From: a virus | Strand: one strand, 5' to 3' | Length of the DNA stretch: 31,580 nucleotides | Virus record (IMG/VR): IMGVR_UViG_3300027608_000097 | Location: 1-31,580 of that record | Part shown: positions 2,929 to 29,647 of the stretch, in pieces | How positions within the stretch are numbered: the first letter of the stretch is position 1 | Layout: each line of letters opens with the position of its first letter | Made by a program: the position numbers and the translations under genes | Notes under the pieces: generated by a model | Seen by the model: only the letters and a program-made list of their open reading frames with translations | Database searches by the model: none | What the model was told of the DNA's origin: nothing

Positions 2929-3781
2929 TCACGGGCTTCCGGCCCCAATGTATAGAGCATTGTCGCACGATGGGTATATGGCTGGCACAAGACAAGCCAA
3001 TATCTCGGTGACAAGTTTAATCGGGCCACCGAAAATCAACCAACTCAAGAAGCGTTATTCTGAGCAGATCGTAGAAGACGCAGCAGACAGAGTGTGGGCA
3101 TTGCTCGGTCAGTCCGTACATAAAGTAGTCGAACTGGCTGGCGGTGAGACTGAGATGACAGAGAAGCGTCTCTACATGGAGATCAATGACTGGACAATAA
3201 CTGGTCAGACTGATCTCTACGAGACAGAGAACCATACTATCTCAGACTTCAAGGTGACATCGGTCTTCTCGTTCCTTCTTGGAACCAAGCAAGAGTGGGA
3301 AGCACAGATCAACTTGAACGCTATGCTCTGGAGAGAGTACGGATACGAAGTCAAGAAAGGTCAGATCGTAGCTATCCTTCGGGACTGGCAAGCGAGCAAG
3401 GCTGAGTTTGACAAAGAGTATCCTCAATGTGCAGTCCACATCGTTGACATTCCACTCTGGGATAATGAAGAAGTTATCCGCTACGCTACTGAGCGTGTTA
3501 AGATGCACCAAGCAGCAGCGGCAATGGCAGATGACCACATCCCGGCTTGTGATCCAAGTGAACGCTGGGCTAAAGCAGATACCTACGCCATCAAGAAAAA
3601 CGGAAACAAGAGAGCAGCAAAAGTGTGTGAGTCCAAGGAAGAGGCAGAGAACCTTCTACCTACCTACGGGGCTAACCATTCGATAGAGAAACGAAACGGT
3701 GGAGATATGCGGTGTGAGCGTTATTGCTCCGTAGCACCCTTCTGCCACTACTACCAAGCAAACTATAAAACTAATGAGTAA
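2912..3781 (+). CDS. PD-(D/E)XK nuclease, Cas4/RecB-like exonuclease
   Basis: About 289 residues. The active-site series of the RecB-like PD-(D/E)XK family is visible: His70 in GQSVH, Asp101 in GQTDLYE, Asp112-x-Lys114 in ISDFKVT, and Gln132 in WEAQINLN. The C-terminus has a Cys cluster (C268, C272, C278), with C226 as a possible fourth ligand, as in Cas4/AddB-type nucleases that hold a 4Fe-4S cluster. Such phage enzymes resect DNA ends for recombination or replication. A GTG at 2873 extends the frame by 13 codons, but ATG 2912 is more natural; ATG 2948 is also possible. It is followed, with an 8-bp overlap, by an SSB-like gene, forming a recombination pair. Confidence 0.82.
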   Translation: MTITNNHGLPAPMYRALSHDGYMAGTRQANISVTSLIGPPKINQLKKRYSEQIVEDAADRVWALLGQSVHKVVELAGGETEMTEKRLYMEINDWTITGQTDLYETENHTISDFKVTSVFSFLLGTKQEWEAQINLNAMLWREYGYEVKKGQIVAILRDWQASKAEFDKEYPQCAVHIVDIPLWDNEEVIRYATERVKMHQAAAAMADDHIPACDPSERWAKADTYAIKKNGNKRAAKVCESKEEAENLLPTYGANHSIEKRNGGDMRCERYCSVAPFCHYYQANYKTNE

Positions 3782-4580
3782 TCAACTAGACGGAATCGAA
3801 CAGAAAGACATCATCAAACGAGTGACTGGTAAGGTCACTAAATTGTGGGAACCTAAGACATTCAACGGCCCCAAGGGTGAGTTTGTCATCCAAGGCGGTG
3901 AGATTGAGATTGATGGACAAACCTACGGGTTGAAGTTCTTCAATAACAATCAAGAACAGAGCATCAAGAACAACGTAGTCACCCTGTCCTCCGTACGAGG
4001 CAAGCATGGGCTAACTGGCGTTACCTTGGAGCATGAGTCCTACGAAGGTAAGAATGGAAAGGTAGATCGTGACATCATCAAGGTAACGGCTACTGGTAAG
4101 ATTGAGTTTGAGAGTGAAGAACCAGCTAGAGTTACTTCAACACCCAAAGTTATCGTTACCGATAATCCTACGGAGGCATTGGATAAGATCGTTGAACTAC
4201 ACAAGTATGTAGATTCACTCGTCCGCCATGCCTACAAGGGAGTGGAAGACGAAGAAACCCTGCGAGCCTACGTCTCCTCGGTCTTCATCGAAGCCAATCG
4301 CAAGGGGATCGCATTCAAGTCTGAGGTTAAAGCTGAACCCAAAGCGGAGCCAAAGGTAGTAGAACAAGAGCTAGACCCTGCTGACTGGGCATCTGCTGTA
4401 GTCCCTAGTGGATCGCAGAAAGGCAAGAAGCTCGCTGAGATCGGTAAGCCAGCACTCACTAAACTCTATGAGTTCTACTTGGAGAAGGGGTTCAGTACTC
4501 CATTCGCTAAGTGCGTTGAGCAAGCCGCCGCTGACCTCGACCTCGATGCGCCAGTAGAAACTGACGACATCCCCTACTAA
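3774..4580 (+). CDS. Single-stranded DNA-binding protein with acidic C-terminal tip
   Basis: 268 residues. The N-terminal 110 residues are beta-rich, with many short Gly/Asn turns, consistent with an OB-fold, although no signature was matched. A charged linker (KAEPKAEPKVVEQE) leads to a helical C-terminal domain. The chain ends in ETDDIPY, a close copy of the conserved acidic tip of bacterial SSB (DDIPF in E. coli), which docks partner proteins on SSB. Together with the overlapping Cas4-like nuclease this supports an SSB-type role in replication or recombination. The domain between OB-fold and tip is unusual for SSB. A copy of the 16-bp palindrome lies inside the gene at 4150. Confidence 0.65.
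   Translation: MSNQLDGIEQKDIIKRVTGKVTKLWEPKTFNGPKGEFVIQGGEIEIDGQTYGLKFFNNNQEQSIKNNVVTLSSVRGKHGLTGVTLEHESYEGKNGKVDRDIIKVTATGKIEFESEEPARVTSTPKVIVTDNPTEALDKIVELHKYVDSLVRHAYKGVEDEETLRAYVSSVFIEANRKGIAFKSEVKAEPKAEPKVVEQELDPADWASAVVPSGSQKGKKLAEIGKPALTKLYEFYLEKGFSTPFAKCVEQAAADLDLDAPVETDDIPY
4150..4165. promoter_or_regulatory. Palindromic site 2 (TTATCGTTACCGATAA)
   Basis: Identical to site 1 but inside the SSB-like gene, where it encodes VIVTDN. A copy within a coding region, far from a start, is more like a stoperator or structural site than a promoter operator. Confidence 0.7.
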
Positions 4581-5587: not shown

Positions 5588-5869
5588 ATGTCAGAAAAAA
5601 ACCAACAAAACGAAACATCCAAAACAATTCTTGAGGCTTTTAGCTTCATTAAATGCGACGATGAGAAACTAAACGAACGAGTACACGCCTTTGCCAGCCT
5701 CTTGCATACCGCAAGCATGATGGTGATCAAGTCTGAATCCCGCAAGGGTGAAGGGTTTGAAGCGATCAAGCACATGGAATTGGCGTTTTTTTACTACCGT
5801 GAATCACAATTCCGTAAGCGGTTTGATACGGAAGAGAAAGAAGAAGAAGCTCCTCGTATCATAACGTAA
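5588..5869 (+). CDS. Small helical protein, possible Acb2/Tad1-like cyclic-nucleotide sponge
   Basis: 93 residues, nearly all helical. Residues 30-75 give two helices joined by a short polar turn (SESRKGEG), the second reading EAIKHMELAFFYYRES. This recalls the helical hairpin of phage Acb2/Tad1-type proteins, where a ...SRE..LA...LE.A..W... helix pairs with a preceding helix to bind cyclic oligonucleotides and block CBASS or Thoeris defence. Size (about 90 residues) and placement at the end of an accessory block also fit. The similarity is visual only; it could equally be an unrelated helical protein. It is last in its operon, followed by a terminator at 5886. Confidence 0.4.
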   Translation: MSEKNQQNETSKTILEAFSFIKCDDEKLNERVHAFASLLHTASMMVIKSESRKGEGFEAIKHMELAFFYYRESQFRKRFDTEEKEEEAPRIIT

Positions 5870-5885
5870 TAGATAGAAACAATCA

Positions 5886-5919
5886 AAGGCCCACAGGTTA
5901 ATTCTTGTGGGTCTTTTTT
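5886..5919 (+). terminator. Rho-independent terminator ending the recombination block
   Basis: AGGCCCACA pairs with TGTGGGTCT (one G-T pair) around a 10-base loop and is followed by six T residues. It sits 16 bp after the stop at 5869. Confidence 0.85.
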
Positions 5920-5934
5920 GCGTCATAAAATAAC

Positions 5935-5962
5935 TTGACCTTCAGATTCATTCATTTATCTT
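5935..5962 (+). promoter_or_regulatory. Promoter of the structured leader and HNH gene
   Basis: TTGACC (5935-5940) and TATCTT (5957-5962) are spaced by 16 bp and preceded by AAAATAA, as at the other phage promoters. The predicted start near 5969 coincides with the first base of the structured RNA described next. Confidence 0.55.
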
Positions 5963-5968
5963 CTGATT

Positions 5969-6100
5969 AGCGAAAGCTCATTGGCGTGAAACCCCAATGT
6001 AAATACAAGATTAAATTTGAACTCTAACTATATCATCCTACCTATGCGGTAAAGGTTTCACCTGTCATTCAGACAGTCTTGTAGCCGTATAGGGGGGGTG
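5969..6100 (+). ncRNA. Pseudoknotted leader RNA, copy A (candidate new class)
   Basis: Noncoding between a promoter and an ATG at 6111. Visible pairings: H1 AGC-GAAA-GCT (5969-5978); H2 CATTGG (5979-5984) with CCAATG (5994-5999); the H2 loop GTGAAACC (5986-5993) with GGTTTCAC (6054-6061), 8 bp; H3 TACAAGA (6004-6010) with TCTTGTA (6077-6083), 7 bp; H4 CCTATGCGG (6041-6049) with CCGTATAGG (6085-6093), 9 bp with one G-U; H5 CTGTC (6062-6066) with GACAG (6072-6076). H3 crosses H4, and the H2 loop crosses both, giving two pseudoknots. A seven-G run (6092-6098) follows. The same plan with different sequence recurs at 19421-19553 on the minus strand. Function is unknown: a cis antiterminator, riboswitch, 5' stabiliser or translation-control element are candidates. 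Confidence 0.7.
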
Positions 6101-6110
6101 GCCTTCTAAT

Positions 6111-6731
6111 ATGAGTAAATATGGAAACCTAAAACAAGGTGATACACGAAGCGATGGTAAAGTTTTTTTTAGATACGATGTTAATGGACGCGAGTATTGG
6201 TATGAGAAAAGCAAGTATAAAGAACTTGTTAAAAAGAAGAAAAAAAACAAAAGCATATACTATCACGTCAACCAAAAGCAACAAAATGAAAGACTAATAA
6301 TTTGGAGAAATGATAACAGAAATAAGATAAGGGAATATTCAAGAACAAAGTATTCTAAAAATAAAAAACAATACGCAATTTTGTTTAAAGAAAAATGCGC
6401 TAAAGAACCAAAATTTAAATTGAAAGTTGCAATAAGAAATTTGATTGGACAATGTTTTAAAAGAAAATCATTTAAAAAGAATGAAAAAACAACGCAAATA
6501 CTTGGATGTTCTTTCGATGAATTTAAATCACACATTGAGTCGCAATTCAAACATGGTATGTCATGGGATAACAGAGGCGAATGGCACATAGATCATATTA
6601 TGCCAGTTTCAATGGCTAAAACAGAAGATGAAGTTATTCGACTTAATCACTACAGAAACCTTCGCCCACTTTGGGCACATGAAAATCTATCTAAGTCAGA
6701 TAAGACTCCAGAGATATTAGTTTTATTTTAG
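6111..6731 (+). CDS. HNH homing endonuclease (free-standing)
   Basis: 206 residues. Residues 7-40 form a short module (GDTRSDGKVFFRY...GREYWYEKSKYKE) that also begins the second HNH protein at 23272. A long Lys/Asn-rich, AT-rich stretch follows, then an HNH catalytic segment near residue 160 (WHIDHIMPVS) and LNHYRNLRPLWAHENLSKSD, typical of phage HNH nucleases. Such enzymes cut DNA at cognate sites and spread by gene conversion. Start ATG 6111 has no SD and lies 17 bp after the leader RNA, which may hold translation in check as known for other free-standing homing endonuclease genes. The poly-Lys, AT-rich composition unlike its neighbours suggests recent arrival. Confidence 0.85.
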   Translation: MSKYGNLKQGDTRSDGKVFFRYDVNGREYWYEKSKYKELVKKKKKNKSIYYHVNQKQQNERLIIWRNDNRNKIREYSRTKYSKNKKQYAILFKEKCAKEPKFKLKVAIRNLIGQCFKRKSFKKNEKTTQILGCSFDEFKSHIESQFKHGMSWDNRGEWHIDHIMPVSMAKTEDEVIRLNHYRNLRPLWAHENLSKSDKTPEILVLF

Positions 6732-6734
6732 AAA

Positions 6735-6771
6735 ACAAAAAAACCAGAAAGGAATTTCTTCCAATCTGGTT
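6735..6771 (-). terminator. Terminator of the leftward helicase unit
   Basis: AACCAGA (6742-6748) and TCTGGTT (6765-6771) form a 7-bp stem. Read leftward, the stem is followed by a run of T residues (the A-run at 6737-6743). It lies between convergent genes and serves mainly the minus strand; on the plus strand only a weak T-tract follows. Confidence 0.7.
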
Positions 6772-6792
6772 CTAAGTTTTGTGAAACTAGTT

Positions 6793-16809: not shown

Positions 16810-17000
16810 GGAAGCAAACTATCAATATCTTGTAACTCTGTCAATACTTTTCTCTGAATAAAGTATTCGTTGTAGATTTTCATCCCTTCGTTCCAGTAGT
16901 TCTCCGCTATACAATATCTTTCTTTGTCTTGTGACTCCCAGATAGTAAGTGCAGCATCCATGAATCTGGATGCCTTCCCGTATGCTTTATCTGTTGACAT
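16806..17000 (-). CDS. Small hypothetical protein (64 aa)
   Basis: Helical, rich in Tyr, Trp and Glu (ASRFMDAALTIWESQDKERYCIAENYWNEGMKIY). It starts at ATG 17000, overlapping the last base of the DnaB-like gene stop. Function unknown. Confidence 0.55.
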   Translation of the reverse strand: MSTDKAYGKASRFMDAALTIWESQDKERYCIAENYWNEGMKIYNEYFIQRKVLTELQDIDSLLP

Positions 17001-18250
17001 TAGAATACCTCCTCGATGCGTGAAGTCTCCCCGTGCATGATAATATCTATTCTGAAATCTTTCGGGCCGCGCCTGTTCTTCTTCACGGTCACTTGGCTTT
17101 TAGTTTTCAGATGCTCAACGTAAATAATCTGATTACTGTGCATCCCAATCGCCCGGCTCTCTCGTAACCTTCCTTCATCATTTAACTGGGAGGCTGTTAG
17201 CATTACAAGTTTGTTAACAGATGCGGATACCTTTAACCTTCTTGTTATCTCAGAGATAGCATTCTCGCGGTTATCTACACCTTCAATGGATACGATCTGG
17301 AGGTAGTCTACGATAACTACATCTGCGCGATTTTCTCCCACATATCGGTTAATATTGGCCTCAATATCGTTAATATCACTTATTGCATCTATGATTTGGA
17401 GTGGCATACCATGCAATTTGGTGAGTGCATTGGTGATTGCGTCTAGTTCTACCTTGTTTGCGTTGAGATATTCTGCTCTTTCGCGGATCGGATAGCCAGC
17501 CATGTTGCAAGCCATACGAGTTAGGATGTCTTTGGCGTTCATTTCTAATGAAAAGAAGATAACTGACTTGTTGTTGAGTAGATTTGCTACTGCTGCTTGG
17601 ACGAGGAAGATGGATTTTCCTCCACCAGTCTCTGAAGCTACCGTCAAAAGCTCTCCATGATGCAGTCCGCCCCTCAATGTTCTGTCTAATCGGATCATTC
17701 CTGTGGTAAAACACTCTTCTTTGGACTTTCCTTCCATCTCGTCGATGATTTCCAAGATAATATCTTTGACTGGCTTTACTTTTACACTCCGATCCTCCGA
17801 ACATCTCATTATCGTTTCCGATAATTTCTTCAAATCGGACTTTCCTACTCGGATATTCGGTTCTTCTTCCTCGATAACCTTGATGACATCGCGGTATCCT
17901 TTGTTTCTGACTAGCTGCTTGCGGTAATCGTCCGCCATATCCTGACAAACCTTTCCAGAAGCGATCTTCATGGTAGAAAGAATCTCATGGACTTCGTTCT
18001 CTCCTCCCGCCGCTTCGATTTCGCCTGTAGCTTCTAACTCAGCAATGGCAGAAAACGGGCAGCAAGCCCCTGTTCGCTGGTGAACCCCTTGGAGTGCTGT
18101 AAAAACCTTCCTGTGGGGCGGCAGAGCGAAATAATCCACATCCCACGTTTGTTGCGCGAGGATGTTTCTGTCTATTGCAATTAAAGCTAACGCTGCTGCC
18201 TCGCTTTTGGTTGCCATTGGGACTACTTTCATTAGTGGTATTTTTTTCAT
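17000..18250 (-). CDS. DnaB-type replicative helicase
   Basis: 416 residues. An N-terminal helical domain (about 12-110) is followed by a RecA-like motor domain: Walker A SETGGGKS at 206-213, FFSLEM after it, Walker B VVIVDYLQ at 311-318, and TASQLND plus RESRAIGMHSNQI with the arginine-rich end. This order is that of DnaB and phage replicative helicases, hexamers that unwind DNA at the fork. The length is slightly short because the N-domain is reduced. The gene follows its likely loader, sharing one base with its stop (TAATG). A palindromic site lies inside at 17809. Confidence 0.92.
   Translation of the reverse strand: MKKIPLMKVVPMATKSEAAALALIAIDRNILAQQTWDVDYFALPPHRKVFTALQGVHQRTGACCPFSAIAELEATGEIEAAGGENEVHEILSTMKIASGKVCQDMADDYRKQLVRNKGYRDVIKVIEEEEPNIRVGKSDLKKLSETIMRCSEDRSVKVKPVKDIILEIIDEMEGKSKEECFTTGMIRLDRTLRGGLHHGELLTVASETGGGKSIFLVQAAVANLLNNKSVIFFSLEMNAKDILTRMACNMAGYPIRERAEYLNANKVELDAITNALTKLHGMPLQIIDAISDINDIEANINRYVGENRADVVIVDYLQIVSIEGVDNRENAISEITRRLKVSASVNKLVMLTASQLNDEGRLRESRAIGMHSNQIIYVEHLKTKSQVTVKKNRRGPKDFRIDIIMHGETSRIEEVF
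17809..17824. promoter_or_regulatory. Palindromic site 6 (TTATCGTTTCCGATAA)
   Basis: Inside the DnaB-like gene in a different reading frame from the other coding copies (reads LSETIM), which argues for a DNA-level rather than a protein-level signal. Confidence 0.65.
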
Positions 18251-19137
18251 TAGAAGGATTGCTTGTAGGGATTGTAACTTTGCGTTTGTTTTTCTTTAGG
18301 TTGGAATACTCCCTGATACCCACTCTCCATAGATGCATTTAGGGATGCTATTGCGTCTTCCTTTCCCCAAGAGACTAGCTTCTTCAAAAGTTTTGCTCTC
18401 CAGATTTCGACTGTCTTCCATTTGTTCTGTTTTCTGAACTCAAGATATTCTTCCCATACTTCACGAAAATCTGGTGAATCCAATTCCGCTGGAAAATTAT
18501 TTTCTGGGGGGGCTTCGCAACGGGGGGAAACATTTTTGCCTTTGGCAATTTTCTCAGTCGGGAATAAATCAGTTTTTTTATCTAAAGGGATTATAGGGTT
18601 TTCTTCTTTGTATGTAATCTTTGTTATAGTCTCTGGTATTGCTCCGTCAGAATGATCAACCGAAGCGTCATTTTGACGGATCGGAGCGACACCTTTGTTT
18701 ATTCTTTCTACACATTCTTCAATTATTGAATATCCACTTAAAGGCATATTCTTAGCGTTTAATTGAGAAATTATTTCTACAAAATTGACTCTATAGTGAT
18801 AAGTTTTATCAAACCTATACCGTGGATTTGGATTAACTCTTCTATGAAGAAAATTCTTTTTTACTAATCTATCAAGAACCCTATTCATCGTTTTTTCGCT
18901 GATAGCTCCGAACATTTCTTCAACTAATTGTGAAGCTGATTTATAAATCCATCCATGAGATAGTACTGGAACGTGATCTACTAGCATTGTGTATTCTTCT
19001 TCTAAGAATTTATCTATGTCTTCAATTCGCTCAGACCAATAACACATCTGATTTAAAATCATTGCTTCTTCCATGCATTGAGTGATGCAAAAAAACTCTT
19101 CTCTAAGTACGATTCTCCCTAGTTTTCTTGGTTTCAT
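18250..19137 (-). CDS. Replication initiation protein / helicase loader
   Basis: 295 residues. Residues 5-125 resemble the winged-helix N-domain of phage replication proteins (IVLREEFFCITQCMEEAMILNQMCYW, then WIYKSASQLVEEMFGAISEKTMNRVLDRLVKKNFL, then YHYRVNF), followed by an unstructured middle and a C-terminal helical part (EVWEEYLEFRKQNKWKTVEIW) like DnaD/O-type C-domains. Such proteins bind the origin and recruit the helicase encoded next. The order initiator-helicase matches lambda O-P and many phages. ATGA overlap with the upstream gene. Where it binds is unknown; the repeats at 12126 are one candidate. Confidence 0.75.
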   Translation of the reverse strand: MKPRKLGRIVLREEFFCITQCMEEAMILNQMCYWSERIEDIDKFLEEEYTMLVDHVPVLSHGWIYKSASQLVEEMFGAISEKTMNRVLDRLVKKNFLHRRVNPNPRYRFDKTYHYRVNFVEIISQLNAKNMPLSGYSIIEECVERINKGVAPIRQNDASVDHSDGAIPETITKITYKEENPIIPLDKKTDLFPTEKIAKGKNVSPRCEAPPENNFPAELDSPDFREVWEEYLEFRKQNKWKTVEIWRAKLLKKLVSWGKEDAIASLNASMESGYQGVFQPKEKQTQSYNPYKQSF

Positions 19138-19406
19138 CTTTTAGCAAGTGATTTGATTGAATCCATTTCGTCCTCTTGGAAGAAATTGTGGATAATATTT
19201 TCTTTTAAAAGCTCTATGTATCCTACTGCTGCACATTTATCATGATGGCACATATCATAGATTTCATCTAATATCTCTGCTGTATTAAGATTATCATCCG
19301 TCCATCTTGAAATATGAGCTAATAATCCAATTCCGCATACAGATAATTTAATGTTATCCAAACTTCGTGTATCAACTAACGTGAATGCTTTGCTTTTAAT
19401 AATCAT
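19134..19406 (-). CDS. Small HTH-like protein, first gene of the replication operon
   Basis: 90 residues. KLSVCGIGLLAHISRWTDDNLNTAEILDEI resembles the GLLAYL-x-x-PD-type winged-helix start of phage replication proteins, but the rest is short and helical. ATG 19406 is 14 bp downstream of leader RNA copy B. An in-frame start at 19457 would lie within the folded leader, so 19406 is preferred. It is coupled to the initiator gene by ATGA. It may regulate or assist initiation; unproven. Confidence 0.6.
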   Translation of the reverse strand: MIIKSKAFTLVDTRSLDNIKLSVCGIGLLAHISRWTDDNLNTAEILDEIYDMCHHDKCAAVGYIELLKENIIHNFFQEDEMDSIKSLAKR

Positions 19407-19420
19407 GTTAAAAAGGCGAC

Positions 19421-19553
19421 CCCTTGTGATGGCGACAGGAAGCGGCAACTGACGCATGAGAGTGGTTTACCACCACAAGGGATCATATATTTTATTTGTT
19501 AATTTAATTCCTGACCTTTCTTCGGCTCTCACCCCGAAGGCACGATTGCTCGC
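19421..19553 (-). ncRNA. Pseudoknotted leader RNA, copy B (same class as 5969-6100)
   Basis: Read leftward: H1 GCGA-GCAA-TCGT (19553-19542); H2 CTTCGG (19539-19534) with CCGAAG (19525-19520); the H2 loop GTGAGAG (19532-19526) with CTCTCAT (19462-19456), 7 bp with one G-U; H3 CAGGAA (19513-19508) with TTCCTG (19441-19436); H4 CCCTTGTGGTGG (19481-19470) with CCATCACAAGGG (19432-19421), 12 bp with one G-U; H5 GCG (19455-19453) with CGC (19444-19442). H3 crosses H4, and the kissing pairing crosses both, exactly as in copy A. Shared bases are few: a GNRA loop in H1, TTAAATT right after H3, TAAA right after H4, and GGGGT-S-GCCTT before the ATG. The predicted transcript start (about 19556) is at H1. 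Confidence 0.7.
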
Positions 19554-19562
19554 ACAAGAAAG

Positions 19563-19590
19563 ACACTACTACATCTAGTGATAGTGTCAA
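19563..19590 (-). promoter_or_regulatory. Promoter of the 17-gene replication operon, with inverted repeat
   Basis: Read leftward: TTGACA (19590-19585), 16 bp, TAGTGT (19568-19563). GACACTA (19562-19568) and TAGTGTC (19582-19588) make a 7-bp inverted repeat spanning the promoter, a possible operator. Palindromic site 7 is centred about 60 bp upstream of the start. Confidence 0.6.
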
Positions 19591-19624: not shown

Positions 19625-20005
19625 TCACTCTAGACTAACAGACTTAATTTCATTCCTCGACCATTGATACATCTGGTCATTGATCTTGTCCCAGATTTCA
19701 TCAGCGTTATCTTCATTCTCAAATTTGTAGATGTAGCGGTGTTCTCCAATTTCATCATTATCACTTATAAAAAAGTTAGACTGGTAAATTGTTAGTCCAC
19801 TTGCAGCGGTGATTGCAACAACAGCAGTATTGTTGGGTTTGAGTGCCATGTTGCATATGCCCTCTTCAGATTCATATTGTGCAATGAAACCAGTATTTAG
19901 TGCAGTAGCTAGAGACATATTTGTAACTAGAACTGTTTGTTTGATTGCGGCAAGCATACGTTCTGCATCTTTATTTACTGCGTTGTTTTCGTTAGTGTTA
20001 TCCAT
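19625..20005 (-). CDS. Hypothetical protein divergent from the XRE regulator
   Basis: 126 residues from ATG 20005; further upstream codons would precede the predicted transcript start. N-terminal helix (NKDAERMLAAIKQTVLVTNMSLATALNTGF), then beta strands (AVVAITAASGLTIYQSNFFI) and an acidic helical C-terminus ending VSLE. Family not recognised. It is transcribed from its own promoter at 20014, facing away from the XRE gene, in the layout of an immunity or switch region. Being next to the repressor-like gene, a regulatory or immunity role is possible. Confidence 0.55.
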   Translation of the reverse strand: MDNTNENNAVNKDAERMLAAIKQTVLVTNMSLATALNTGFIAQYESEEGICNMALKPNNTAVVAITAASGLTIYQSNFFISDNDEIGEHRYIYKFENEDNADEIWDKINDQMYQWSRNEIKSVSLE

Positions 20006-20013
20006 AAGCAAAT

Positions 20014-20059
20014 AGACTATCAAAAAAGTGTTGACTTGTCAATAGGATTGGTTTACTTT
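20014..20059. promoter_or_regulatory. Interlocked divergent promoters with palindromic core
   Basis: TTGACT-TGTCAA (20031-20042) is a palindrome whose halves serve as the two -35 boxes. Rightward: TTGACT, 17 bp, TACTTT (20054-20059), start about 20066. Leftward: TTGACA, 17 bp, TAGTCT (20019-20014), start about 20007. Each start falls 2 bases or so before the ATG at 20068 or 20005, so both mRNAs would be leaderless or nearly so. Confidence 0.7.
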
Positions 20060-20067
20060 TAATTGAA

Positions 20068-20475
20068 ATGAAGCATCCACTATACGAAGCCTATGAATCT
20101 TGCATGACTGCATACGAGCAGTCTCGCTACATTCGTTCTATTGGACGCAAGACCTTTGCGAATCAGCTTCGGGAAACCCGCAAGCGACTAGGAATGACAG
20201 TCAGGGAACTAGGTGACAAGATCGGCGTAACTGGATCGTTAATCAACCAGATTGAAGTAAACTCCAAGAGCATTCTGAAGAAAGAACAAGTAGATAAAGT
20301 GATCGAACTATGCACACCTTCCTCGAAATCGAAAACGGCAAGTACTACGTCCGAGTCAGTCCCTACGCTGCAAGCAACCCCGGCCCTATGCACGAACGAG
20401 GAAAGCCTTTCCCAGACAGCCTCAGACCAGAGTACGACTCATTGGAGTTGGCCTCCATCGGACTTCAAGAGCTAA
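20068..20475 (+). CDS. XRE/Cro-type helix-turn-helix regulator with extended tail
   Basis: 135 residues. FANQLRETRKRLGMTVRELGDKIGVTGSLINQIE (30-63) is a clear XRE/Cro HTH with the usual Q/G/I spacing, and KSILKKEQVDKVIEL closes the fold near residue 81. From residue 83 the tail becomes Ser/Thr-rich and low in structure, exactly where another gene starts in a different frame (20310). The bases CTATGCAC at the junction would give a stop overlapping an ATG if C were A, so the tail may be a lost-stop read-through. It is a candidate binder of the TTATCG palindromes or of the promoter palindrome at 20031. Confidence 0.75.
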   Translation: MKHPLYEAYESCMTAYEQSRYIRSIGRKTFANQLRETRKRLGMTVRELGDKIGVTGSLINQIEVNSKSILKKEQVDKVIELCTPSSKSKTASTTSESVPTLQATPALCTNEESLSQTASDQSTTHWSWPPSDFKS

Positions 20476-23271: not shown

Positions 23272-23922
23272 ATGGAAACTATCACAAAACATAAACGAGG
23301 AGATGTCCGCGAAGATGGGAAAGTGTTTTGGAAATATGCATCTTCTTGCAAGGATGGCGAGTATTGGCTTTCAAAAGAAAAGTTTGAGGAAAAGAAAAAA
23401 CGCGAATCTGAAAGGAATTCTAAATACTACAGCAAAAACGAAAATTCTCACAGAGAATACGTAAAAGATAGATATGCTAAAAACAGGATTGCAATACGTG
23501 AACAATTGAGAGTTTCTCGATTAAAGAATATTGATCGCTATAGAGAAAAAGGGAAAGAAAGTTCAAGGTTATGGAGGAAAAAAAATCCAACAAAGTATAA
23601 AGAAAATTTAAAAAATTGGATAAAAGAAAATCCAGACAAGTATAAATTGATTATAGCAAAAGGAAACTCAAAGCGTAGGGCAGCCGAAAAAAACAACACG
23701 CCTGATTTAACTTCAGAGCAGAATCTGATTATAGAAACCATATACTTGCAAAGAATAAGACTTGAAAAAAGATTTGGTTTGCAGTTTCATGTAGATCACA
23801 TAATCCCAATATCAAAAGGTGGATTGCATATACCTTCAAATCTACAGGTATTACCAGCAAAACTAAACCTACAAAAAAATTCAAGAAACTCACTAAGGTG
23901 GGAAGAACTTCAACTTATTTAA
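23272..23922 (+). CDS. HNH homing endonuclease with shared N-terminal module
   Basis: 216 residues. Residues 7-38 (KRGDVREDGKVFWKY...GEYWLSKEKFEEKK) match the N-module of the HNH protein at 6111. A Lys/Asn-rich middle has repeated KxNPxKYKEN-like segments, and the HNH site near residue 172 reads FHVDHIIPISKGG, then SNLQVLPAKLNLQKN. This catalytic end differs from that of the 6111 protein, so the same module is joined to two nuclease types. It is inserted between a small gene and the portal gene. The AT-rich, Lys-rich coding sequence marks it as a mobile insertion. Confidence 0.85.
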   Translation: METITKHKRGDVREDGKVFWKYASSCKDGEYWLSKEKFEEKKKRESERNSKYYSKNENSHREYVKDRYAKNRIAIREQLRVSRLKNIDRYREKGKESSRLWRKKNPTKYKENLKNWIKENPDKYKLIIAKGNSKRRAAEKNNTPDLTSEQNLIIETIYLQRIRLEKRFGLQFHVDHIIPISKGGLHIPSNLQVLPAKLNLQKNSRNSLRWEELQLI

Positions 23923-28031: not shown

Positions 28032-28237
28032 AAGAGATAGCCGAAATTATCGTTTACGATAATATTAGGGATTCAACCGCACTCTGGTTGGCGAGTTATC
28101 GACCTCGCATTAAAAACGATTTCTGGACAGAAAAATCTCTGGGTCGGTTCCAGCAGAGGAAACCAAGCACTCGCTTGCTATTCCTCATGGTTTAGTTTGC
28201 GGTGCAAAACCAAACCAAACTAAATAAAATAAAATCA
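28032..28237 (+). other. Long structured leader of the capsid gene
   Basis: About 200 noncoding bases with many hairpins: CAACC/GGTTG, GCGAG with CTCGC around a TTATCGAC loop, CTGG with CCAG around a GTCGGTT loop, GAGGAA with TTCCTC (28156-28186) and TTTAGTTTG with CAAACTAAA (28191-28224). The loop ATCGAC could pair with GTCGGT as a 6-bp kissing contact. Palindromic site 10 lies near the start. An A-rich tract ends at ATG 28238; a GTG at 28202 in frame is unlikely as start. Confidence 0.5.
28047..28062. promoter_or_regulatory. Palindromic site 10 (TTATCGTTTACGATAA)
   Basis: Intergenic copy lying 15 to 30 bases downstream of the predicted capsid transcript start, where a bound protein would act as a roadblock rather than as an activator. 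Confidence 0.7.
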
Positions 28238-29647
28238 ATGAGCGATCAACTCTACTTCAATAGTTGTGCTGAGATTGACAGTTTCTTCCGCGAGGGCCGC
28301 GAATATTTCAACGACCTCTATGTTAAGAAACTCGTAACGAACTCTGCATATTTCACCCGTTTCGAGGAGCAAGCATGGCCTCTTAACCATACAACTGAAC
28401 AGAAAGCATTCCGTTTCGGACGTGGATTCCACGATCCTTGCACACCTTTCCGTCAGATCACTGACACCTACTGCGAGACTGATTCTTGCGATAGCAAACC
28501 AGAAGTGATTCAACGCCCCGGCACTGAGTCCTACACTTTTGAATTGCTCCGTAAGGAAATGACCACTGACTGGATTTGCGTTGAGAGCTTGCTCTACCGC
28601 TTGTTCCCTGCTGAAGAAATCCTTCAGTTTGAAGAGTCGAATGCTCGTATCACCAAGAACGTTCACGAAGAGTTCCTTCGTTCCAACTACATCGGTGGTT
28701 CTGGACACAAATGGATGGGCATCACTACGGATGACGGAACCTATTGCGGCCTCGTCGATGACGGCGCATGGTTCGTTCCTGAGCATACCATCAACAACGA
28801 AGCTGGTTACGACCTCTGCGCTCTTCGCGTTAAGATCGCCACTGCTGACCTTGGTAAGATCGCTTATCTCTCGCTTGATATGCTCGACGATGCACTCGTT
28901 GACCTCCAAGACGAAGATGACGCTTTCCGCCTTGATCTCCAAGACGCGACTGGTCAGCCTTTGCTCGACATCGTTATCCCTGACCCACAAGTTGGCCGTG
29001 CGCTTTACTTCCAAGCCAAGCGTAACAACGGTTACTGGGATGCAAACACCGATTTCGACGAGCGTCTTACTCGTTTGAAACTCGGCATCAATCGTATCAT
29101 CGGCGACTACGCCTTTGGTTACGACATCAACTCCGCTCGTTTCAACGCTGACTCGGCATTCAACGCCTCGCTTCCAGCTTTCAACGAAGCTGATCCTGCA
29201 ACATGGCCTCGCCTCGTTCGCGTTCCTCGCTACATCAAGACTGTTCTTGAGCAAGGTTGCGCTTACATTCCTAACCGCGCTTATCGCAATGCCGATTTCG
29301 GTATCTCGGTTGCTATGGTTAACAAAGCCATGGTGAAATGGACGATGCCTTCCAATAGTGGATACGGCCAAGCCCAACAAATGACCCAGAACTACGCTGG
29401 TGATTGGGAATGGAAGAACCCAGATTGGGAGTGCAACCGCTGGCGCAAAACGGGCTTCTATCAAGCCCAGTTCCGTCTTGCCGCACAGGTTAAAGACCCA
29501 ACCATCATGCACAGCTTCTTGCATCGTATGCCTAAGAGCAAGAACCTCTACGGTTCCTGCTGCGAAGTGCAGACCTATATCGTTCCTGAGAATAATCAGG
29601 ATTGCTATAGCTGCGCTGGTGTAGGTGACATTGTTGTGCCTTCCTAA
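28238..29647 (+). CDS. Major capsid protein
   Basis: 469 residues beginning MSDQLYFNSCAEIDSFF. Position after the scaffold, its own promoter and long leader, and a codon use visibly more biased toward C-ending codons than its neighbours all fit the most abundant virion protein. The mixed alpha/beta composition with frequent aromatic and acidic residues is consistent with an HK97-like fold, which is not directly provable from sequence. Many Cys (for example NQDCYSCAGVG at the end) are unusual for a capsid protein. A long open frame also exists on the opposite strand but is a codon-bias artefact. Confidence 0.75.
   Translation: MSDQLYFNSCAEIDSFFREGREYFNDLYVKKLVTNSAYFTRFEEQAWPLNHTTEQKAFRFGRGFHDPCTPFRQITDTYCETDSCDSKPEVIQRPGTESYTFELLRKEMTTDWICVESLLYRLFPAEEILQFEESNARITKNVHEEFLRSNYIGGSGHKWMGITTDDGTYCGLVDDGAWFVPEHTINNEAGYDLCALRVKIATADLGKIAYLSLDMLDDALVDLQDEDDAFRLDLQDATGQPLLDIVIPDPQVGRALYFQAKRNNGYWDANTDFDERLTRLKLGINRIIGDYAFGYDINSARFNADSAFNASLPAFNEADPATWPRLVRVPRYIKTVLEQGCAYIPNRAYRNADFGISVAMVNKAMVKWTMPSNSGYGQAQQMTQNYAGDWEWKNPDWECNRWRKTGFYQAQFRLAAQVKDPTIMHSFLHRMPKSKNLYGSCCEVQTYIVPENNQDCYSCAGVGDIVVPS

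Follow-up and report, generated by a model that had tools for sequence, protein, structure and literature searches.

A pseudoknotted leader RNA upstream of replication-initiation genes in a group of freshwater phages

The window analysed here, an IMG/VR virus record taken at its full length of 31,580 bases, contains two leaders, copy A and copy B, which can be drawn as pseudoknotted RNAs with the same order of elements. A preliminary description of the two copies had recognised no known class in them. The locus raises three questions: whether the fold is maintained by selection, whether it belongs to an RNA family already described, and what such an RNA may do directly in front of a start codon. 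All evidence concerning the fold and the role of the leader is comparative, and covariation was judged by shuffles, slides and permutations.

Fold and covariation of the leaders

Direct reading of the window located both leaders where the preliminary description had placed them. Each element could be assigned, all helices that had been drawn are real, and the kinds of element and their order were correct. Reading from 5′ to 3′, the first half of the leader consists of hairpin H1, hairpin H2 with a kissing loop, the 5′ strand of H3, a single strand (UAAAU ... AUAU) and the 5′ strand of H4. The second half comprises a short linker, the kissing strand, hairpin P5, the 3′ strand of H3, about one base and the 3′ strand of H4, after which follow GCC, a pyrimidine/A-rich spacer and the AUG.

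Copy A (5969-6110, plus strand) extends from H1 to the base preceding the start codon of an HNH gene. Its H1, a GNRA hairpin with a GC-GAAA-GC core (5969-5978), is where the transcript is predicted to begin. H2 is a 6-bp hairpin (5979-5999), whose loop carries the kissing strand GTGAAACC at 5986-5993; the partner strand, GGTTTCAC, is at 6054-6061 (this pairing is referred to as K). The 5′ strand of H3, TACAAGA (6004-6010), pairs with TCTTGTA (6077-6083). The single strand TTAAATT ... ATAT between H3 and H4 (6011-6033) stands out by column conservation. The 5′ strand of H4 (6034-6049) pairs with 6085-6100, and P5, a short hairpin with a conserved loop, occupies 6062-6076. The 3′ strand of H4 is followed by the conserved GCC (6101-6103, within GCCTT), the spacer and the ATG at 6111.

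Copy B (19407-19555, minus strand) is the whole predicted 5′ UTR of a replication operon. Here H1 is a GNRA hairpin with a GCAA loop (19540-19555), and the loop of H2 (19520-19539) carries GTGAGAG (19532-19526), the partner of the kissing strand CTCTCAT (19456-19462). The H3 strands are at 19508-19515 and 19434-19441 (TTCCTGTC), the P5 hairpin GCGTCAGTTGCCGC is at 19442-19455, and H4 is formed by GATCCCTTGTGGTGG (19470-19484) and CCATCACAAGGGGTC (19418-19432), followed by GCC (19417-19415) and the ATG at 19406. Two details of the preliminary description had to be corrected. H4, drawn there with 9 bp, spans 16 positions in copy A, one of them mismatched, and has 15 bp in copy B, and the TAAA said to follow its 5′ strand is no general feature of the family when leader types are compared.

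Each of the helices K, H3 and H4 crosses the other two, and three types of bracket are therefore needed to write the structure. Such a topology is beyond nested folding programs: nested minimum-energy folds recovered H1, H2, P5 and H4, and missed K and most or all of H3. H1 is closed by GAAA, GCAA, GAGA or GGAA loops. Two A-type leaders (L003 and L124) lack the GNRA hairpin, which is therefore not absolutely required. The kissing loop occurs in at least seven variants across the family. Near-invariant unpaired residues, as measured by column conservation, are the UAAAU, the A-U of the AUAU stretch, the P5 loop and the GCC.

Three simpler interpretations of the 3′ part were rejected. GGGGT cannot, as a general reading, be a conserved Shine-Dalgarno sequence: its bases pair in H4 and covary (GGGACC, GGAACC, GGGATC). 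An intrinsic terminator composed of H4 and a T-run fails in several types without a T-run (GCCCCTTCTC, GCCCTACCC), and a local GGTGG/CCACC hairpin after H4 is confined to some B types.

The homologues were collected from IMG/VR phage contigs. Relatives of the genes behind both leaders carry recognisable leaders with differing helices, and DNA patterns placed on the conserved single-stranded parts found dozens more in viral contigs. A covariance model (R1) was built from 20 leaders, copies A and B among them, using the nested helices only. It recovered these two training members with 80.3 bits (copy A, E = 3e-16) and 162.9 bits (copy B, E = 1.5e-34), and C-type leaders, which were outside the training set, with 63-79 bits. 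A second model (R2) aligned 101 leaders, nearly all distinct. The covarying homologues whose absence would have refuted the preliminary description were thus found. A 16.5-bit match in another record (G060) was not credible, as it was gone with model R2.

In a first alignment of 20 rows 94.9% of the cells were paired and 30 of the 45 pairs had double-sided changes. With 79 distinct leaders the values rose to 95.2% and 39 of 45, with 512 double-change cells observed against 124 expected. None of 500 shuffles equalled either alignment, and sliding the partner by 1-3 columns in the 79 rows lowered pairing to 40-50%. Double changes were present in all six pairs of H1, four of the six pairs of H2 and 14 of the 15 pairs of H4, and P5 covaries as GCG/CGC and CYG/CRG (same 79 rows). 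The compensatory change proposed earlier from two copies is borne out by these counts.

Because the nested helices H1, H2, H4 and P5 had guided the alignments, counts in these helices are biased towards the structure. K and H3 had been left out of the fit, yet they covary. The pairing was also assessed by an alignment-free permutation of partner strands. For K the cognate value was −9.6 kcal/mol, compared with a shuffled-partner mean of −5.9 and −7.7 for the best of 300 shuffles. The corresponding values were −7.8, −3.1 and −3.7 kcal/mol for H3 (72 distinct strand pairs) and −25.4, −12.8 and −15.4 kcal/mol for H4. In H1, H2, H4 and P5 there were 287 G-U cells and a single A-C cell. The asymmetry indicates that the selected molecule is the coding-sense RNA, and rules out a DNA cruciform or an antisense RNA in that role.

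Genomic setting of the leaders

Promoter-like sequences precede both copies: TTGACA ... TAGTGT (19563-19590, minus strand), about 7 nt upstream of H1 of copy B, and TTGACC ... TATCTT (5935-5962, plus strand), about 6 nt upstream of H1 of copy A. Across the family a TTGA motif starts 32-33 nt upstream of the model start in 90 of the 101 leaders. Given a standard promoter, we infer that the transcript begins at or near H1, in which case the RNA would be essentially the entire 5′ UTR; normally, the leader is predicted to be the whole 5′ UTR of a replication-initiation operon. An ATG follows all 101 leaders; counted from the G of GCC it is 9-15 nt away, and in 91 leaders 11-13 nt.

The placement of H1 at the predicted 5′ end and the closeness to the promoter would suit an element in which hairpin and knot block decay from the 5′ end, or which acts on the polymerase like the HK022 put RNA. 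Neither role requires a fixed spacing to the AUG, and put-like antitermination elements are simple hairpins, which makes this explanation the most remote of those we considered.

Behind copy B lies an operon of three genes (17000-19406, minus strand). The first is a small ORF of 89-90 aa, the second (18250-19137) encodes an O-like replication initiation protein (PHROG 678, E = 8.9e-19), and the third (17000-18250) a helicase with DnaB-type matches. An acidic protein of about 130 aa and no known family, a possible regulator, is encoded at 19625-20023 (minus strand); in relatives its gene commonly ends just upstream of the leader.

The genes downstream of the 101 leaders have more than 40 different N-termini and match O-like initiators, DnaD-like helicase loaders or HNH endonucleases. 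One gene was found behind several leader types, and one leader type before several genes. Since leader type is independent of the gene, leader and gene are swapped as modules, and the leader is a generic module, independent of what the first gene encodes. Autogenous control by the downstream protein is, for the same reasons, unlikely.

Copy number was assessed in records retrieved by their capsid gene alone, that is, without bias for the leader. Of 12 such records with a length of 44 kb or more, 11 had exactly one copy. The twelfth (G049) has its helicase at 40.2 kb; as the leader follows about 11.5-12 kb after the helicase in other records, its expected place is beyond the end of this one. 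The leader is single-copy wherever a capsid-collected phage record covers the locus.

The 481-aa capsid-like protein of the window (28202-29647, plus strand) had 204 relatives and was 92-99% identical in 80 contigs, and contigs with a near-identical capsid-like protein differ strongly in their replication modules. The group defined by this protein consists of abundant freshwater phages without a cultured match for terminase or portal.

Beyond this phage group the leader was not found in the cultured phages and bacterial genomes searched. Cultured phages gave no match to the leader, the terminase or the portal, 296 genomes of one bacterial phylum contained no leader, and a pattern scan of 84,980 genomes for bacterial or prophage copies returned 11 matches, attributable to chance. 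These results bear on a further explanation, a metabolite- or ion-sensing riboswitch that gates the start of replication to host physiology. A compact multi-pseudoknot fold with an invariant unpaired core adjoining the AUG is compatible with it. The restriction to one phage group, with no copy in the 296 genomes and only chance matches in the large scan, and the absence of a conserved alternative fold or terminator make it very improbable.

Few genes of the window have a Shine-Dalgarno sequence. The same holds for Bacteroidota, in which initiation is tuned by mRNA structure and by the bases around the AUG (PMC6847099). That the host belongs to the Bacteroidota is no more than a guess based on these traits.

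Relation to known RNAs and possible function

At the gathering threshold Rfam 15 gave no match in the window, and in eight relatives only an unrelated abiF RNA far from the leader. A search with four leaders of different types at E ≤ 10 returned chance-level matches only, with no pistol and no ribozyme family among them. The statement that the class is undescribed can thus be upheld, and the pseudoknotted 5′-UTR RNA of about 145 nt is, as far as comparison of sequences can tell, a new structured-RNA family of a freshwater phage group. The abiF RNA (44.4 bits) lies at 6613-6649 on the minus strand of a leader-carrying phage contig (L330).

The fold, selection at the RNA level, single copy, operon position, fixed spacing and independence from the downstream gene are established, within the limits of comparative data. 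From these features we favour, on balance and without great confidence, a cis-acting RNA that would control translation at the start of replication; the mechanism is inferred, and there are no expression, probing or translation data. Transcription would start at or just upstream of H1. The H2 loop kisses the strand beyond H4; H3 and H4 interlock as a second pseudoknot, with room for H3 to stack on H4. The fold ends at the conserved GCC, with the AUG, after a pyrimidine/A-rich stretch, about 11 nt on. The folded RNA may then influence in cis how translation of the first replication gene is initiated: as a compact body beside the 30S mRNA path it would set access to the AUG or, when switched, block it. 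HNH cassettes have apparently taken copies of the leader as a ready-made expression signal.

The action on translation is inferred because the RNA fills the leader, the distance to the AUG is constant and few genes have a Shine-Dalgarno sequence; the transcription start, the direction of the action and any trigger are inferences as well. Three points weigh against translational control. The fixed spacing may represent the minimal unstructured room that any ribosome needs, the conserved unpaired residues could just as well belong to a catalytic or ligand-binding core, and no trigger has been identified.

The main rival is self-cleavage, for which there are no cleavage data. A cut would remove or loosen the structured leader and leave a translatable mRNA with a short 5′ part. 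The near-invariance of the single-stranded residues and the GNRA hairpin, which suggests tertiary docking, are in keeping with catalysis, and the order of H2, kissing loop, H4, kissing strand and P5 is that of the pistol ribozyme. In pistol, which is common in phages, a hairpin loop base-pairs with the left junction that joins two other stems (PMC4604425). P1 would correspond to H2, the pseudoknot to K, P2 to H4 and P3 to P5, all in the same order and covarying in the leader; the A-rich joining strand and the association with phages are further likenesses. The right-shoulder junction of pistol is strictly conserved at 2 nt, a GU dinucleotide that is the cleavage site (PMC4604425). All leader types have an 8-9 nt H3 strand between the P5 and H4 3′ strands in its place, and the defining feature of pistol therefore fails. 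The extra helix, of 8 bp, crosses both other pseudoknot helices, and the leader is about twice as long as pistol, has no Rfam match and always stands before an AUG. The catalytic G of pistol follows the pseudoknot strand, and this residue has no conserved counterpart in the leader. Pistol had been considered and dismissed in the preliminary description. Membership was correctly denied; what had been missed is that the layout is that of pistol with the crossing helix H3 added. A self-cleaving RNA would have no need of a fixed distance to the AUG, and no ribozyme family of Rfam was matched even at E ≤ 10. We regard self-cleavage as unlikely.

HDV-like and theta ribozymes also have crossing pseudoknot helices. 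The helix order and the joining lengths of the leader differ from theirs, and the absence of matches to the HDV-family models of Rfam agrees with the earlier judgement that an HDV-like layout does not fit. Theta ribozymes occur in phages, and those described so far adjoin tRNAs (PMC10879173).

Pistol is the strongest structural parallel; in function, the strongest parallels are the leaders of T4 gene 32 and ColIb-P9 repZ. The T4 gene 32 leader contains a pseudoknot and UUAAA/UAAA elements (PMC535899). Likenesses to it are the phage replication gene, the leader pseudoknot, the UUAAA/UAAA motifs and a structure kept as the sequence diverges (PMC535899). The T4 operator is a simple pseudoknot of about 28 nt, followed by more than 40 nt with the Shine-Dalgarno sequence (PMC535899), whereas the leader has about 145 nt, three mutually crossing helices, an end near the AUG and no single downstream protein. 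Of the features of a T4-type operator, pseudoknots and UAAAU are thus present, and topology and spacing differ; protein-binding data are lacking.

An operator of this kind would bind an excess of a phage ssDNA-binding or similar protein through the pseudoknot and UUAAA, and shut the replication operon. The almost invariant UAAAU of the leader would suit such binding. That the downstream genes belong to several protein families speaks against direct autogenous control of the T4 gene 32 kind; as leader types do not track the downstream gene, the binding protein would have to be one that the phages have in common. One recombination-operon protein, encoded at window 3774-4580 and without a known family, was present in all 15 records tested. 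This 268-aa protein has no family match, and its ssDNA-binding nature is a guess. No RNA-binding partner has been identified, and the kissing-loop variants, at least seven, argue against recognition of those bases. An operator of this type seems to us distinctly improbable.

In the IncI alpha plasmid ColIb-P9 a leader pseudoknot upstream of the replication initiator gene repZ controls its translation (PMC8383071). The repZ system has a two-element pseudoknot and antisense-RNA control; the new leader offers no sign of an antisense partner, its G-U/A-C asymmetry showing selection on the sense strand only.

The newness lies in the RNA family, with about 100 diverged members and a single copy in each genome of an abundant group of freshwater phages, and in its topology. 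If the leader functioned as a protein-bound operator, its role would count as a variation on a type already known. Its position at the genes that start phage DNA replication could reveal either a new ribozyme or a new mode of translation start or gating in hosts where Shine-Dalgarno pairing is seldom used. It is conceivable, though rather doubtful, that the RNA itself docks on the small subunit and places the AUG some 11 nt beyond its base, in an IRES-like manner and in a setting poor in Shine-Dalgarno sequences, or else represents a new class of ribozyme built on the pistol plan.

Copy A at an insertion hot spot

The gene behind copy A (6111-6731, plus strand) encodes an HNH/endonuclease VII-like protein (PHROG 1035, endonuclease VII, E = 5.4e-12). 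It sits between convergent genes, one at 5588-5869 (93 aa) and the other encoding a 543-aa helicase. The gap between them (5870-6792) was compared with that of five relatives (L379, L384, L390, L381 and L386). In three relatives the HNH gene is absent and only about 70 bp with a terminator-like hairpin remain; others have a different 227-aa gene, or the HNH gene without a leader. The variable content identifies the gap as an insertion hot spot.

A second leader copy was found only where a record has an A-type leader linked to an HNH gene (the window, G001, G017 and G022), and a C-type leader likewise stands upstream of an HNH-like gene (L333). In view of this linkage and of the empty or alternative states of the gap, copy A is best read as a second leader that was captured by a mobile HNH homing-type endonuclease cassette. 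On this reading, homing-type endonucleases have taken over an expression leader from the phage that carries them. No leader was found at HNH genes outside this phage group.

The window encodes another HNH/endonuclease VII-like protein at 23272-23922 (plus strand), whose gene has no leader RNA. A palindrome close to ATCGNNANCGAT was observed with 27 strand matches against 6.9 expected (0 of 100 shuffles), at positions 2471, 4152, 8173, 10103, 13299, 17811, 19611, 21098, 23257, 26116, 28049 and 30644. The set looks like a series of operators, possibly for the HTH protein encoded at 20068-20475. One palindrome lies immediately upstream of the copy B promoter, and another directly before the HNH gene at 23272.
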